Source: Bacteroidia bacterium (GTDB lineage: Bacteria > Bacteroidota > Bacteroidia > J057). From it: a stretch of DNA of 64,000 nucleotides. The notes under the pieces are model-generated. The model worked only from the letters and a program-made list of their open reading frames with translations, did not search any database and had not been told where the DNA came from. The position numbers were made by a program, and so were the translations under genes. How positions within the stretch are numbered: position 1 is the stretch's first letter; each line of letters opens with the position of its first letter. Below are positions 6,673 to 12,155 of the stretch, in pieces. The stretch is from assembly GCA_033391075.1 (NCBI GenBank), contig JAWPMV010000005.1, positions 186,001 to 250,000 on the forward strand, given 5' to 3'.

Positions 6673-8196
6673 ATGAAATCCTCAAAGAAGGTAAATCGCA
6701 GGAAATTTATCAAAACCACAGCTGCAGGGGCAGCGAGTTTTAGTATTATTCCCAGTCATGTCCTGGCAGGTTCGGGGAAAATTGCTCCTTCCGATCGTAT
6801 CCATGTGGCAAATATTGGCTGTGGGACACAAGGGCTTCGAGAGATGTCTGACATTCTAGAAAATGAGAAAGTTCAATTGACCGCCGTTTGCGATCCCAAC
6901 AAGTTTTCGGAGAATTATCTGGACTGGTCACCTGCTGGCCTAAAAGCCGGAATCAGAAAAACCCTGGGGGACAAAAGCTGGGGAGAGAATTTCAAAGGAA
7001 TTGCTGGTGGAAGAGATGTTGCCAAAGATTATGTAGATAAGTATTATCAAAAAAACAGTCCCAATCCCGGCAAAAAATATAAAGGCTGTACAGCATATGA
7101 AGACTTTAGGGAATTGCTGGAAAAAGAAAAGGATCTGGATGCAATCAAGATCATGACTCCTGATCATTTGCATGCGACCATTGCACTTGCAGCCCTTGAT
7201 GCAGGCAAACATGTGATCACACATAAACCTATAGCCAATCGACTGAAAGAAGCTCGTCTGGTTTTTGATAAAGTCCGGGAAACCAAGCTAAAAACTCATT
7301 TGATGGCCTGGGATGAAAAGTATGAATATGGATTGATCCGCCAATGGTTGAAAGATGGAGTTATTGGTGAATTAAAAGAGATTCACAATTGGTCGGTAAG
7401 ACCTGTTTGGCCTCAATTTCCGAAAGCCCCTGAAGGCGATATGCCTATCCCTAAAGATTTCAATTGGGATCTATGGTTAGGACCGGTTCCCCATCGCCCT
7501 TACCACAAGGACTGGACCCATAATGTCTTCCGAGGATGGTTTGACTTTGGAGGCGGGAGTTTTGCAGATATGGGACATTATAGCCTTTTCCCTTTGTTCC
7601 AACAGCTTGACATACGCAAGCCGGCCATCAGTGCTAAAGCCTATGGAAATGCCCAGACAACTTCTGTAAATGGTGTCTGCCGAAGGATCAATAATAAATC
7701 TGCTTATCCCCTGGCTTGCATGTTCAAATTGCGCATGCCCGAGCAGGAATGGTTACCCTCCTTTGATTTGTTCTGGTATGATGGAGGGATGAAGCCTTTT
7801 GAGTCAGATGAGCTGGAAGCGGAAGGAGTTAGTTTTGATAGAGAGGGCTTGATGTTTGTGGGGACCAAAGGAACGATACTCGCTGGATTTGAAGGAGCCA
7901 ATCCCCGTATTTTATCCAAAGCCAATTCTGATGCGTACAGCGGCAAGAAGAAAATTGAAAAGTACCAATCAGAAAGACGTTCGGATACATGGGCTCGCGC
8001 TATCATCAGTGGCAATGAATCCCCCGGAAGTTTTCTGGAAGCAGAGTGCATCACCGAAACCATCAATTTGGCTACTGTCGCACTCCGGGTCGGAAAGAAA
8101 GTGGAGTATGATTCAGCAAATATGAAAATCACCAATAGCAATCTGGCAAACAAATACCTCACAAGAGAGTATCGCGAGGGTTGGGAATTGGGGTGA
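6673..8196 (+). CDS. Exported Gfo/Idh/MocA-family oxidoreductase with Tat signal
   Basis: A 507 aa secreted oxidoreductase. The N-terminus has a twin-arginine signal (NRRKFIKTTAAGAASF), so it is exported folded with its cofactor. A Rossmann motif follows (HVANIGCGTQG, about residues 44-54). The usual E-K-P block appears as HKP near residue 190 (MTPDHLHATIALAALDAGKHVITHKP is split by this motif). Family members oxidise or epimerise sugars, and some are NAD-dependent glycosidases of GH109 type; this one is longer and cannot be assigned a substrate. It lies 105 bp after the TRAP operon on the same strand and may act on the same carbohydrate-derived compounds. Confidence 0.88.
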   Translation: MKSSKKVNRRKFIKTTAAGAASFSIIPSHVLAGSGKIAPSDRIHVANIGCGTQGLREMSDILENEKVQLTAVCDPNKFSENYLDWSPAGLKAGIRKTLGDKSWGENFKGIAGGRDVAKDYVDKYYQKNSPNPGKKYKGCTAYEDFRELLEKEKDLDAIKIMTPDHLHATIALAALDAGKHVITHKPIANRLKEARLVFDKVRETKLKTHLMAWDEKYEYGLIRQWLKDGVIGELKEIHNWSVRPVWPQFPKAPEGDMPIPKDFNWDLWLGPVPHRPYHKDWTHNVFRGWFDFGGGSFADMGHYSLFPLFQQLDIRKPAISAKAYGNAQTTSVNGVCRRINNKSAYPLACMFKLRMPEQEWLPSFDLFWYDGGMKPFESDELEAEGVSFDREGLMFVGTKGTILAGFEGANPRILSKANSDAYSGKKKIEKYQSERRSDTWARAIISGNESPGSFLEAECITETINLATVALRVGKKVEYDSANMKITNSNLANKYLTREYREGWELG

Positions 8197-8209
8197 TAAG
8201 GATATAAGA

Positions 8210-8236
8210 GGATATATAGGATATATAGGATATATA
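8210..8236 (+). repeat. Three perfect tandem copies of a 9-bp repeat
   Basis: The unit GGATATATA occurs at 8210, 8219 and 8228, with a degenerate fourth copy just before (8200-8209). It sits between the oxidoreductase stop and the first REP-like palindrome, just outside the transposase unit. It may be a slippage product or part of the insertion boundary. Confidence 0.85.
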
Positions 8237-8245
8237 GAACACCAT

Positions 8246-8267
8246 GGGGCAGCTCATGAGCTGCCCC
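8246..8267. repeat. REP-like 22-bp perfect palindrome, upstream copy
   Basis: The left arm is GGGGCAGCTCA and the right arm is its exact reverse complement, so the site forms an 11-bp stem with no unpaired loop on paper (in practice the central CATG would open). It lies 25 bp before the transposase start. Confidence 0.9.
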
Positions 8268-8292
8268 TACCATTACATAATTTGAAAACACA

Positions 8293-8811
8293 ATGAAACA
8301 CAACAGAAAGCACATTCGTTGGCGAAGCTGGGACTATTCTTCATGCGGAGCCTATTTTGTCACAATCTGTACAGAGAAGAGAGAAAGGTACTTTGGTGAA
8401 ATAAAGACCGGTCTGCTAAATTTAGACCTTGAAGATCCATTATCTTACCTAAATGCTAAGCTGATTGCTGTAAAAGCTTTCGAATTCTGGAAAGAAATTC
8501 CTCTACATTACAAATTTGTGCAAGCGGATTGTCTAGTAATTATGCCAGACCACATCCATGGTATTTTATATTTAGATCTTCCCTATAAAACTGAATGGAA
8601 ATCCAATTCATTTGGGCCTCAAAGAAAAAATTTGCCTGACATAATTAGAGCTTATAAAGGAGCTGTTACTAAATGGGCAAATGAAAATCTTCATGCATTT
8701 AAATGGCAAAGAAGTTACTATGATCGTGTAATCCGTAATGAAGAAGAATACCACAGGATCAAGAGTTATATTTCTGAAAATCCTAACCGATGGTGTAAGG
8801 GCAGCTCATGA
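8293..8811 (+). CDS. REP-associated tyrosine transposase (IS200-like, Y1_Tnp)
   Basis: A 172 aa protein of the RAYT/TnpA-REP group. The N-terminus (RWRSWDYSSCGAYFVTICT) is typical. The HUH nickase motif is HIH in MPDHIHGIL (near residue 91), and the conserved C-terminal segment RVIRNEEEYHRIKSYISENP carries the candidate nucleophilic Tyr in SYI. The enzyme cuts and rejoins single-stranded DNA at hairpins. The gene looks intact. Its TGA stop (8809-8811) lies inside the downstream palindrome, so the last codons are supplied by the repeat. Confidence 0.93.
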   Translation: MKHNRKHIRWRSWDYSSCGAYFVTICTEKRERYFGEIKTGLLNLDLEDPLSYLNAKLIAVKAFEFWKEIPLHYKFVQADCLVIMPDHIHGILYLDLPYKTEWKSNSFGPQRKNLPDIIRAYKGAVTKWANENLHAFKWQRSYYDRVIRNEEEYHRIKSYISENPNRWCKGSS

Positions 8812-8818
8812 GCTGCCC
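8799..8818. repeat. REP-like 20-bp perfect palindrome, downstream copy
   Basis: The arms GGGCAGCTCA and TGAGCTGCCC are exact reverse complements and match the inner 20 bp of the upstream palindrome. One more C follows at 8819 but the pairing base on the left is A. The transposase stop codon is contained in it. Confidence 0.9.
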
Positions 8819-8836
8819 CATATAAGTTACCATAGG

Positions 8837-8869
8837 CAAAAAGCCCCAATCAATGATTTAGGCTTTTTG
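8837..8869. terminator. Bidirectional rho-independent terminator
   Basis: A 9-bp stem CAAAAAGCC / GGCTTTTTG (8837-8845 and 8861-8869) with a 15-nt loop and T-runs on both strands. It lies between the transposase unit and the stop of the convergent tricorn gene. Confidence 0.7.
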
Positions 8870-8870
8870 T

Positions 8871-11800
8871 TTAATCTTTCTTCGCCGGCGTATTATAAGG
8901 TGGCACCTTTATTACTGGTGTAGGATTTCTATCCAGCATTTTCAATACTTCCTGTACAGCTCGTTCCAATTGCGGATCACGGTCTTCAGATAGGGCTTTG
9001 GCATCTTGCCTAACAGCTATATCTGGAGCGATGCCTTCATTTTCACCGATAAACTTCTTATTGATCGGGTCAAATACTGCATTATCAGGAGAAGTCAGGG
9101 CTCCTCCATCCACAAGCGCATAATGTACTGAGGATTTCACCAAACCTCCCCAGGTGGTTGCACCGATCAGGGGACCGGCTTGTTGCTGGCGGAATACCCA
9201 GGGGAAGAAGTCTCCACCGGATCCGGCCATTTCATTTACCAAAAGTACTTTTGGCCCCAGGATACCTGCGGGTAAACGGAAAGGCTTTCCATTGGGAACT
9301 TCATTGGTGATACCTGCACGCAAAGAACGAGTCATCAAGTCAACCATATAGTCATCCAGAAGTCCTCCTCCATTGAAACGCTCATCTATTACAGCCCCTT
9401 CTTTATCCTGCTGGGCAAAGAAATAACGGTTGAAAGATACAAATCCGGGACCTCCGGTATTTGGCACCCAGATATATGCGAGGCGACCCCCAGAGAGTTC
9501 GTCTACCCTCCTACGATTATCTTCTACCCAGGCACGCTGACGGAGGGCATTTTCATTTCTGATCGGCTCTACCGTCTCTTTCCACGAACCTTCAAATTCA
9601 GGCTTATCATTGAGGTGTAAAACAGTCTGATTACCTGCTGTACCATCCAATAATTCGAAGGGATCCATCGCAGTTGTTAATTCCTTGCCATTTACTCCAA
9701 CCAGGAAGTTTCCTTCTTTCACTTTCATCCCCGGACGATCCAGAGGACTGGAAAGATTGGGGTTCCAGCTTTCGGTGGTAAATATTCGGCTAATCTTCCA
9801 TCTTCCTTTCTCTGCTTCGAAATCTGCTCCCAACATACCTACTTCAGAACGATCCACATCAGGGAAATCTCCCCCAAATACAAAACTATGTCCTACAGAG
9901 AGTTCTCCATTGACCTGATCCAGGATGTAACTCAGATCCGAACGGTGGCGAATATGTTCTACCAATGGTGCATATCTTTCATAGACCTTATTCCAATCTC
10001 TACCATGCATATTAGGATCATAGAAATAATCCCTTTCATAGCGCCAGGCCTCCTCAAACATTTGCTTCCATTCTTCTGGTCTTTTCAATTTCATTTTCAA
10101 TTTAACAGAAACCGGCTTGGCTCCTTTTCCACTAGGACCCGCAGCTGATGCAATTTTCCAGGAAGGTCCGGATTGAATCAGGATTTTCTTATGGTCTGCA
10201 GATACGGTGAACTGACGTACCCTGGAGCTAAATTCTTTGGCTTTGCGATCCTTTAAGGTGAATTTATGCAAAGTAGCTCCTGGAGTTCCTTGCTTGAACT
10301 CTGCAATGAATACACTTCCGGCTGGTCCACTTTCCATTGCGCGATAATTGGCCACTGGAATTGGCATCGCTATAGTTCGGCGGTCTAATCGATCATAATC
10401 GATTTTTAGTCCTTCATCTTTCTTTTCCTTTTTTTCCTCCGCTTTATCTTCTTTCTTTTTATCGCCTTCCTTCTCTTCTTTCATTTCTTCTCCTTCTTTT
10501 TTCTCTTCCTTGACTTCCTCTTCATCACTTCTTGGGATAAAAGGAGAGTCCTGATCGTCTGCAAGCACAATCACATAGGCCGCATAGCGGGGACGAGCCT
10601 GCATAGCACTGGTATTTGCCCAACCAGAACCCAAAGCCAAATCAGTACTTGCGAGAAAGTAGAAATGCTTTTTATCCTGATCCCAGGCTGGAGAAAAGGA
10701 ATCTGCAAACTTATTTGTCAGGGCCTTATTTGTATTCGTTTCGCTATCCCAAACAATGATTTGGCGGAAGTTGTTGCTTCCTGATTTTACATAGGCCAAT
10801 TTCTTTGAATCGGGTGCCCAACTTAAAGCAGTACGTCCTCTATCCAGATTATTTCCTCCGACATCTACGGTTTTTACACTACCGCTTTCCAATTCCAGTA
10901 CACGAATTCTCACATCATCATCGACAAACGCGATATGTTTGCCATCCGGTGACCAAGTTGGATTCCAGGCCAGTTTAGACTCCCCGATTGGAATTTTCCT
11001 GGAAGGCTTGGACAAACCATCCTGGTCCGCCAAATAGAGGGCGTATCCTTCTCCATCTGAATCGGAGAACCAGGCAATTTTATCCCCCTTTGGAGACCAA
11101 AGTGGATTTCTATCAGCGGCATCTGAACTTTGGGTAATATTTCGGGAATCTCCATGCTCAATAGGTACGGTAAAAATCTCACCGCGAGCCTCCATCAGTG
11201 CCCGTTTTCCAGTTGGTGAAAGAGACACAGATCTCGAACGGCGACTAACATCTTCCCATTTGGGTTCAGCCCAGGGGAAATCACCACTTACGGTAATACT
11301 AAGCTGGGTCGCTGCTCCACTTTCTTTATCCAGCATATGTAAGTAACCGCCTTGCTCGATAATCATTTTTCCACCTCCATATGCGAGCCATTTCACATCC
11401 GTCTCCTTGAACTTGCTGAGCTGACGGACTTCTTTGTTTTTGGTATTGTAGGCCCAGACATTCATGGTCCAGTCTCTGTCGGACAAAAAATAGATTTCAT
11501 CGTCTACCCAAACAGGCTGAATATCTGTAGTCTTTTCATTAGGTAATAAAGTCTCTGCATTTGATTTGAGATCCAATAAGATCAGGGGAGTATTTTGCCC
11601 CCCTCTATAGGCTCTCCATTCAACATCCCAACGACTCATTTTATCTACGATCATTTTGCGACCATTTGGAGAATAAGAACCATCAAATCCCCATTGGGCC
11701 GTGACTCTTTCAGAAGGTCCTCCCTCCGTAGATACTGTCCAGAGACGATTGAAAGAAGAAGGTGCACTTTCACGACTTGAAGCATAAAGTACGCCTTTCC

Positions 11801-12155
11801 CATCCGGCGTCCATCCTCTTACGGAGGCGGAAGAAGGATGCCAGGTCAATCTTTCAGGTATACCTCCTTCAATGGAAACAATATATACTGCATTAGGACC
11901 AGAGCGATTGGAACTAAAAGCGATCCATTTTCCATCCGGGGAAAGGTAAGGATTGCTTTCAACAGCAGGGGTACTGGTAATTCGTTTTACATTTTGACCA
12001 TCGAGATCCGATAGCCAGATATCCGCTCCATATACAAAAGCGATATGATCGGAACTCAAGCTGGGTTGGCGCAACAATCGCGTGCCCTGGGCTATGCTAA
12101 AGCTATTGAGAAGCAGGCATGCCATGAGGCTGAGTAGAGTGTTTCTAAAAAACAT
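8871..12155 (-). CDS. Tricorn protease homologue (S41 family), exported
   Basis: A 1094 aa protein with an N-terminal signal peptide ending near AQG. Residues about 25-520 are WD40/TolB-like beta-propeller repeats (SPDGKWIAFSSNR, SPKGDKIAWFSDS, SPDGKHIAFVDDD). A Lys/Glu-rich segment lies near 541-583. Then come the tricorn core, a PDZ domain near 775-860 and the S41 catalytic domain. His756 (SVGHS) and Ser979 (AGSGGDFF) match the tricorn catalytic residues. It should degrade peptides in the periplasm, the propellers gating access. The start at 12155 gives a normal signal peptide. It is monocistronic and divergent from the sulfatase gene. Confidence 0.93.
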   Translation of the reverse strand: MFFRNTLLSLMACLLLNSFSIAQGTRLLRQPSLSSDHIAFVYGADIWLSDLDGQNVKRITSTPAVESNPYLSPDGKWIAFSSNRSGPNAVYIVSIEGGIPERLTWHPSSASVRGWTPDGKGVLYASSRESAPSSFNRLWTVSTEGGPSERVTAQWGFDGSYSPNGRKMIVDKMSRWDVEWRAYRGGQNTPLILLDLKSNAETLLPNEKTTDIQPVWVDDEIYFLSDRDWTMNVWAYNTKNKEVRQLSKFKETDVKWLAYGGGKMIIEQGGYLHMLDKESGAATQLSITVSGDFPWAEPKWEDVSRRSRSVSLSPTGKRALMEARGEIFTVPIEHGDSRNITQSSDAADRNPLWSPKGDKIAWFSDSDGEGYALYLADQDGLSKPSRKIPIGESKLAWNPTWSPDGKHIAFVDDDVRIRVLELESGSVKTVDVGGNNLDRGRTALSWAPDSKKLAYVKSGSNNFRQIIVWDSETNTNKALTNKFADSFSPAWDQDKKHFYFLASTDLALGSGWANTSAMQARPRYAAYVIVLADDQDSPFIPRSDEEEVKEEKKEGEEMKEEKEGDKKKEDKAEEKKEKKDEGLKIDYDRLDRRTIAMPIPVANYRAMESGPAGSVFIAEFKQGTPGATLHKFTLKDRKAKEFSSRVRQFTVSADHKKILIQSGPSWKIASAAGPSGKGAKPVSVKLKMKLKRPEEWKQMFEEAWRYERDYFYDPNMHGRDWNKVYERYAPLVEHIRHRSDLSYILDQVNGELSVGHSFVFGGDFPDVDRSEVGMLGADFEAEKGRWKISRIFTTESWNPNLSSPLDRPGMKVKEGNFLVGVNGKELTTAMDPFELLDGTAGNQTVLHLNDKPEFEGSWKETVEPIRNENALRQRAWVEDNRRRVDELSGGRLAYIWVPNTGGPGFVSFNRYFFAQQDKEGAVIDERFNGGGLLDDYMVDLMTRSLRAGITNEVPNGKPFRLPAGILGPKVLLVNEMAGSGGDFFPWVFRQQQAGPLIGATTWGGLVKSSVHYALVDGGALTSPDNAVFDPINKKFIGENEGIAPDIAVRQDAKALSEDRDPQLERAVQEVLKMLDRNPTPVIKVPPYNTPAKKD

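Follow-up and report, generated by a model that had tools for sequence, protein, structure and literature searches.

The Transposase Locus and Its Two Palindromes

The window, a stretch of 64,000 nucleotides from the genome of a Bacteroidia bacterium, contains a RAYT-type transposase gene (8293-8811) that sits amid two inverted copies of a palindrome, at 8246-8267 and 8799-8818. Upstream of this gene lies a Gfo/Idh/MocA-type oxidoreductase gene on the plus strand (6673-8196), and downstream lies a convergent gene for a tricorn-like S41 protease on the minus strand (8871-12155). The features between these two neighbours are:

8199-8237, no strand: 9-nt tandem repeat AGGATATAT, 4.2 copies, ending 8 nt before the left REP
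8246-8267, minus strand: left REP hairpin, GGGGCAGCTCATGAGCTGCCCC, a perfect 22-nt palindrome
8293-8811, plus strand: gene for a RAYT-type Y1/HUH transposase of 172 amino acids, ATG start, single copy in the genome
8551-8559, plus strand: HUH motif H87-I-H89, with H87 and H89 invariant in 44 sequences
8704-8709, plus strand: W138-Q139, with W138 invariant in 44 sequences and Q139 almost invariant in them
8767-8769, plus strand: Y159, the candidate catalytic tyrosine, in a YI..NP motif, invariant in 44 sequences
8795-8818, plus strand: right REP, consisting of a GTAA foot (8795-8798) and a 20-nt palindrome (8799-8818)
8809-8811, plus strand: TGA, the stop codon, positioned centrally in the right REP
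8837-8869, no strand: inverted repeat resembling a terminator, in the gap separating the RAYT gene from the convergent gene for the tricorn-like protease

The left REP ends 25 nt upstream of the ATG start, and its GTAG foot, on the gene-proximal side, occupies 8270-8267 of the minus strand (read as CTAC on the plus strand). The right palindrome, GGGCAGCTCATGAGCTGCCC, is perfect over 20 nt, the base adjoining it on the left being A and not G, and its foot, gene-proximal on the plus strand, has the degenerate form GTAA. The original prediction held that the same perfect palindrome brackets the gene. Both copies are indeed perfect and do bracket it, but the arms of the right copy are one base shorter. 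Together with their flanks, the two REPs form a 27-nt inverted repeat that is 96% complementary (arms 8244-8270 and 8795-8821). The possibility that the pair belongs to a larger duplicated segment, which had been named as an objection to the prediction, is ruled out, since the ungapped repeat match stops at the 27-nt arms. With up to three mismatches, the palindrome has two matches in the window and none in each of 100 shuffles. This result, along with the 10 copies in the genome compared with none of a control pattern, indicates that the pair at the RAYT gene is not due to chance.

As RNA, the left REP folds at -18.8 kcal/mol, which was equalled by 0 of 200 shuffles, and the right REP at -16.5 kcal/mol (3 of 200). 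The inverted repeat at 8837-8869 folds at -16.8 kcal/mol (0 of 200); it was not reported by the terminator scan, whose sole terminator-like site is not at the REPs. The promoter scan found fewer sites than in shuffles.

Identity and Copy Number of the Transposase

The gene at 8293-8811 encodes a RAYT, or TnpA-REP, with a HUH motif and a candidate catalytic tyrosine in a Y1 fold. Searches with standard family models fall short of their thresholds. The protein scores 21.2 bits against Pfam Y1_Tnp, under the cut-off of 23, and 47 bits against NCBIfam REP_Tyr_transpos (NF047646), under a cut-off of 80 that is a naming threshold and not a biological definition, for a model that may not cover the subclass of this RAYT. 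A single-sequence PDB search with the protein gave a chance match only, and a PHROGs search gave no significant match. A profile built from 44 homologues, however, matches 4ER8, the structure of E. coli TnpA-REP (E=1.2e-9). The AlphaFold model of the protein has a mean pLDDT of 88.2, and Foldseek retrieved ISDra2, IS608 and 4ER8 with it at a probability of 1.00, the TM-scores being 0.45-0.65 in the first 30 rows. In this fold search 4ER8 ranked 13, with 16% identity in the structural alignment and TM-scores of 0.52/0.54.

The window protein thus shares both a profile match and a fold match with the E. coli enzyme. By motif, W138-Q139 is the counterpart of W94-Q95 in E. coli TnpA-REP, a region that is said to recognise the REP foot (PMC6006769). 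In contrast, the same survey describes the REP stems of the E. coli TnpA-REP subclass as mostly bulged (PMC6006769), whereas the REPs in the window are perfect palindromes.

Both the protein search and the profile search find one copy of the RAYT gene in the genome. A second Y1_Tnp gene, L017 (G000:C1:1090665-1090943, an ORF of 154 amino acids), was matched by neither search. It was found by a Pfam family search of the genome, which missed the RAYT gene of the window. Because the Y1_Tnp search overlooked this gene, the Pfam model evidently misses such RAYTs, and the profile search provides the better count.

The copy number bears on the claim that the locus is a self-contained unit. If that is taken to mean an autonomous, IS-like mobile unit with the inverted REPs as its ends, the bracketing 27-nt inverted repeat and the compact, single-gene unit of about 580 bp would fit. 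However, there is one copy in the genome, whereas several near-identical genome copies would be expected of an IS200/IS605 element. Mobility of the unit is not supported by either count, and this explanation is very improbable. The neighbouring genes were also compared among relatives in search of an empty site; no comparable one was found, which weighs neither for nor against a mobile unit. The tricorn-like protease has relatives in 12 other genomes of the family, at 64% identity in G008, 46% in G011 and far weaker in most others. The oxidoreductase and sulfatase that neighbour the protease in the window are encoded in none of the 13 other loci from the protease search, one of which is in the same genome, within flanks of about 1.5 kb where the contig allowed. 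The window oxidoreductase has no match at a strict E<=1e-60 in six relatives.

The REP Family in This Genome and in Other Genomes

Contrary to one objection raised in advance, the palindrome is not confined to the RAYT gene. The genome of 9,489,248 bases contains it 10 times exactly, once with a single mismatch and five times with two. Reversing the pattern as a control gives none. A wider family, GGGRCAG-N(3-14)-CTGYCCC, occurs at 54 places compared with two for its control. Both feet, GTAG before and CTAC after the palindrome, are present in five of the 10 exact copies, and at least one such foot in eight of them. The GTAA foot is also found in one other exact copy, L008, and neither copy at the RAYT gene has both feet intact. 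More general double-foot palindromes of the form GTAG...CTAC occur at 18 places in the genome (control, 1). Eight of the exact copies lie away from the RAYT gene. By simple ORF calling, five of these are between convergent genes, three are between co-directional genes and none is between divergent genes. This placement agrees with that described for other genomes in an earlier study (PMC3733652).

Two of the copies have partial REPs beside them. In L003 (about 1480-1525) a half-palindrome directly precedes the full copy, and in L007 (about 1500-1550) a near-copy follows it. These partial REPs look like traces of REP duplication.

Of the genomes searched, this one alone has the REP sequence. 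When one mismatch is allowed, none of the order's 21 other genomes (22 searched) contains the palindrome, and none of the 295 other genomes in a sample of 296 from the phylum, which listed no further member of the order, contains the footed palindrome. The palindrome was therefore found in no other genome, with or without a RAYT, although its occurrence in many genomes lacking a RAYT had been raised as a possible objection. The Por secretion tail family, which is characteristic of Bacteroidota, has at least 150 matches in the genome, and among 14 control genomes only Bacteroides had any. The 10 exact copies and these matches bear out the original prediction of a RAYT and a REP family of its own in a member of Bacteroidota. 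With this locus, a Bacteroidota lineage gains a clean example of a REPtron whose REP is private to the genome.

Across the order, the number of palindromes follows the presence of a RAYT. The profile search found a RAYT-like match in 13 of the 22 genomes (marginal in G001, 6e-4). The 13 genomes with such a match contain 0-139 double-foot palindromes compared with 0-2 in the nine others (Mann-Whitney p=0.0014, 22 genomes). Some RAYT-matching genomes have nearly none (one each in G001 and G004, none in G011), and in two others the count is near that of the control (3 vs 4 in G008 and 8 vs 5 in G012). REPs and RAYTs go together in the order, but the association is not absolute.

The distribution also bears on whether the palindromes are repeated signals for transcription or translation, such as hairpins of the terminator type, that are unrelated to the transposase. 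In favor of this explanation, the hairpins form in RNA and most of the copies elsewhere, five of eight, are between convergent genes. However, no T run follows either copy at the RAYT gene, and most exact copies carry at least one GTAG foot, as in RAYT-linked REPs. Moreover, palindrome number goes with RAYT presence, and outside this genome both the palindrome in the 22 genomes of the order and its footed form in the phylum sample are missing, which would not be expected of a general signal. An origin as such signals is extremely unlikely.

The Stop Codon and the C-Terminal Tail

The RAYT ORF ends in ...NPNRWCKGSS, encoded by the codons TGG (W167) TGT AAG GGC AGC TCA TGA. The foot of the right REP starts one base past the codon of the conserved W167 (8791-8793), and the right palindrome encodes G170, S171 and S172 as well as the stop. 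This confirms the earlier observations that the TGA lies inside the second copy, where it occupies the center, and that the last residues and the stop come from the repeat.

When the footed REP is read in three frames, two encounter a stop, the TAG in the foot or the TGA at the center. A REP that lands at the end of a gene will therefore often terminate it, and the stop of the RAYT gene appears to be a by-product of the position of the REP. The best reading of the TGA at the REP center is that it is incidental to where the REP lies. Nor is the supply of a stop special to the RAYT gene. In two of the eight exact copies elsewhere, L001 and L006 (both at about 1521), the GTAG foot provides the TAG stop of the neighbouring gene. 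One of these two genes is, we presume from its sequence, methyltransferase-like.

The residues that normally follow the conserved Trp are missing from the window protein. All five aligned homologues have an acidic stretch after this residue. Among 91 genes with the motif, the window gene included, 81 have an acidic residue at positions 2-4 past the Trp, and 82 of the 91 have one at positions 1-4. The median tail past the Trp is 10 residues in these 91 genes, and that of the window protein, CKGSS, is among the shortest. Nothing resembling a lost tail was found in the three frames of the 57 nt that start at the right REP's foot. Most simply, a REP may have settled directly behind W167, with loss of the original tail. 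The missing acidic tail fits the earlier suggestion that the repeat had been captured as part of the gene, the insertion itself being inferred.

Comparison with Published RAYT Systems

The layout of the locus had been regarded as unusual, a minimal unit in Bacteroidota. This view is not supported: the layout corresponds to the published REPtron (PMC2817692), and subclass 2.4, with REPs inside the gene, has been described (PMC6006769). The family was first reported as a rayt gene flanked by a pair of inverted REPs, and REPs are also said there to be often very near or immediately past the rayt stop codon (Nunvar 2010, PMC2817692). A single-copy Y1/HUH gene, two inverted REPs and REP copies throughout the genome are shared between the window and the REPtrons of this report. 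The difference is that there the REP follows the stop, whereas here it contains the stop (PMC2817692). As a layout this is not new, and it is no evidence that the unit moves autonomously.

Subclass 2.4, which corresponds to RAYT group 4, comes from Bacteroidetes and Cyanobacteria and is abundant in Bacteroidetes (Quentin 2018, PMC6006769). The subclass is described as having double-foot REPs, short repeats in the variable region between HuH and Y, and in-frame REPs inside the gene in that same region, a location of the REP that is predominant but not universal (PMC6006769). The window gene shares with this description the WQ motif, the presence of double-foot REPs in the genome and an in-frame REP within the coding region. 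However, the motifs NH[IFV]H, WQ and YIxNNP are represented in the window by DHIH, WQ and YISENP, so that one of the three agrees. Moreover, the window gene has no REP between HUH and Y and instead has one at its C-terminus, and its two REP copies have at most one intact foot in place of the double feet. As judged against this description, the window gene is nearest to subclass 2.4 but is not filed as a member, a placement made independently of the published subclass tree.

REPs are known to supply the stop codons of adjacent genes by means of the TAG in their foot, according to a study of such elements (Di Nocera 2013, PMC3733652). The REPs in that study act through the foot on neighbouring ORFs, whereas here the TGA of the palindrome center ends the transposase gene itself (PMC3733652). 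A REP can therefore end its own transposase gene through the center of the palindrome and not only through the foot TAG. In the accessible portions of the RAYT/REP literature, no description was found of a rayt stop codon at the center of a REP, which is weak evidence of absence. The position of the stop is a small variation on the published arrangement. How the GTAG foot acts in vitro has been described; E. coli TnpA-REP is reported not to accept any change in GTAG, whereas the Stenotrophomonas enzyme tolerates it for binding (PMC8266576).

Recurrence of Hairpins in Related RAYT Genes

The best 80 of at least 436 relatives were taken as survey loci, and further loci came from the genome searches. 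ORFs were kept if their match reached model position 160 and their end lay 60 nt or more within the locus boundary (n=106). Seven ORFs without M[PS][ND]H.H were dropped (L135, L146, L161, L041, L040, L050 and L159). The remaining 99 ORFs came from 98 loci; the best 80 loci contributed 78 of them and the genome-search loci 21, with the window gene itself among them. Relatives of the window gene are over-represented in this set and the rows are related to one another, which means that the counts are not independent. The controls were 195 neighbouring ORFs chosen by length only (at least 150 amino acids), which may include spurious ones.

A hairpin was found within the ORF in 49 of the 99 RAYT-type genes compared with 2 of the 195 neighbouring ORFs (Fisher p=2e-25). 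The stop was in or at most 4 nt from a hairpin in 8 of 99 compared with 2 of 195 (Fisher p=0.003), and strictly inside one in 5 of the 99 genes. In three genes, those of the window, L125 and L100, the stop is near the hairpin center. The survey therefore quantifies a pattern that had been published in general terms; in a sample enriched for relatives, about half of the genes have an in-ORF hairpin and under a tenth terminate within or next to one. Nearly all in-ORF hairpins (50 of 52) are located after the HUH motif and before the later W motif. Where a GTRG foot was readable (n=42), it was in frame 0 in 33 cases and in frame 1 in nine, the frame that gives a TAG stop being used in none. DHIH, the form in the window protein, is found in nine of the 99 genes.

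The count of stop hairpins depends somewhat on the set and the threshold. It is 9 of 106 in the unfiltered set, with L146 added, and 8 of 93 (strict 5) when six divergent rows are removed. At the highest hairpin threshold it drops to four (strict three), and the window case fails there. On a quick tree with many weak forks (37 of 96 open), the stop label requires eight changes for eight rows, so the cases look independent. When only rows with in-gene hairpins are compared with them, there are seven changes compared with a shuffled mean of 7.6, and no clustering.

The hairpins in these genes often resemble others at the same locus. For in-gene and stop hairpins paired with same-locus hairpins, 29 of 50 pairs match at 0.83 or above, compared with 2.7% of 2606 between-locus pairs. 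By locus entry the figure is 20 of 29. In the remaining nine of 29 entries, including those of the stop hairpins of L034 and L073, the best same-locus value is below 0.83, and by eye the two hairpins of L034 share a REP.

These results bear on whether the stop REP is a functional part of the gene, kept by selection for self-binding or self-regulation by the RAYT or for linkage between the gene and its substrate. The recurrence of both stop-overlapping and in-gene hairpins would fit this explanation, as would the matching within loci, and folding as RNA is strong for the left hairpin and weaker for the right one. In contrast, two unrelated genes of this genome are ended by the same REP, which makes a special role unnecessary, and the stop cases are scattered on the tree and not conserved. 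The foot of the stop copy, furthermore, is GTAA and not GTAG. Selection for such a role is decidedly unlikely. A broader proposal is that RAYT genes of this group repeatedly take their own REP into the coding sequence, between the catalytic motifs in about half of the surveyed relatives, where it is kept matched to the flanking copies as a self-targeting or self-limiting device, the stop hairpin being one form of this. That proposal is unlikely as well, if somewhat less so. If functional, the in-gene copies would provide a direct handle on the control of RAYTs. Why the RAYT genes of this group so often carry their own REP in the coding sequence is the more interesting question.

Proposed Origin of the Gene-Terminal REP

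The locus is very probably an ordinary REPtron, that is, a single-copy RAYT amid two inverted REPs of its own, of which the right one ends the gene incidentally. By analogy with TnpA-REP enzymes studied elsewhere, the RAYT would be expected to recognise the single-stranded DNA form of the REP hairpin beside the GTAG foot, binding it and cutting nearby. Over time, this activity would spread copies of the REP, with many arriving at gene 3' ends. One REP may then have come to abut W167, the last conserved residue of its own RAYT. Read in the frame AAG GGC AGC TCA TGA, it would reach the TGA at the hairpin center, and it would in this way have replaced the usual short acidic tail and provided the stop.

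The window gene pairs on the tree with L033 (G009), with an SH-aLRT of 85, under the 95 mark; L033 has a palindrome upstream and none at its stop. Several observations count against the REPtron reading. The nearest gene is only 52-54% identical, and neither a tail-bearing close relative nor an empty site was available for comparison, so we infer the insertion. In addition, the right REP has a GTAA foot and only half of the exact copies have both feet. Lastly, the subclass 2.4 motifs agree in part, the Pfam and NCBIfam scores are under their cut-offs, three genomes with a RAYT-like match have 0-1 double-foot palindromes, and in G008 and G012 the number is near that of the control.

Other Repeats at RAYT Genes

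The same-family relatives L043, L055, L044, L039, L046 and L042 have a REP-like palindrome in frame inside the RAYT ORF. Many of L060-L139 likewise hold one, nearly always between the HUH and W/Y motifs. Short tandem arrays are near 35 of the 99 surveyed RAYT genes compared with 24 of 168 control stretches from the same loci (p=1e-4), and some of these arrays are partial REP copies. L146 (G021:C13:26466-27020) contains a disrupted RAYT-like gene with an in-frame TAG and hairpins at and around it, and is perhaps a RAYT copy broken by its own REP. In L036 (G012), about five copies of a 33-nt repeat are found upstream, directly before the RAYT domain, and would encode a repeated peptide if in frame.
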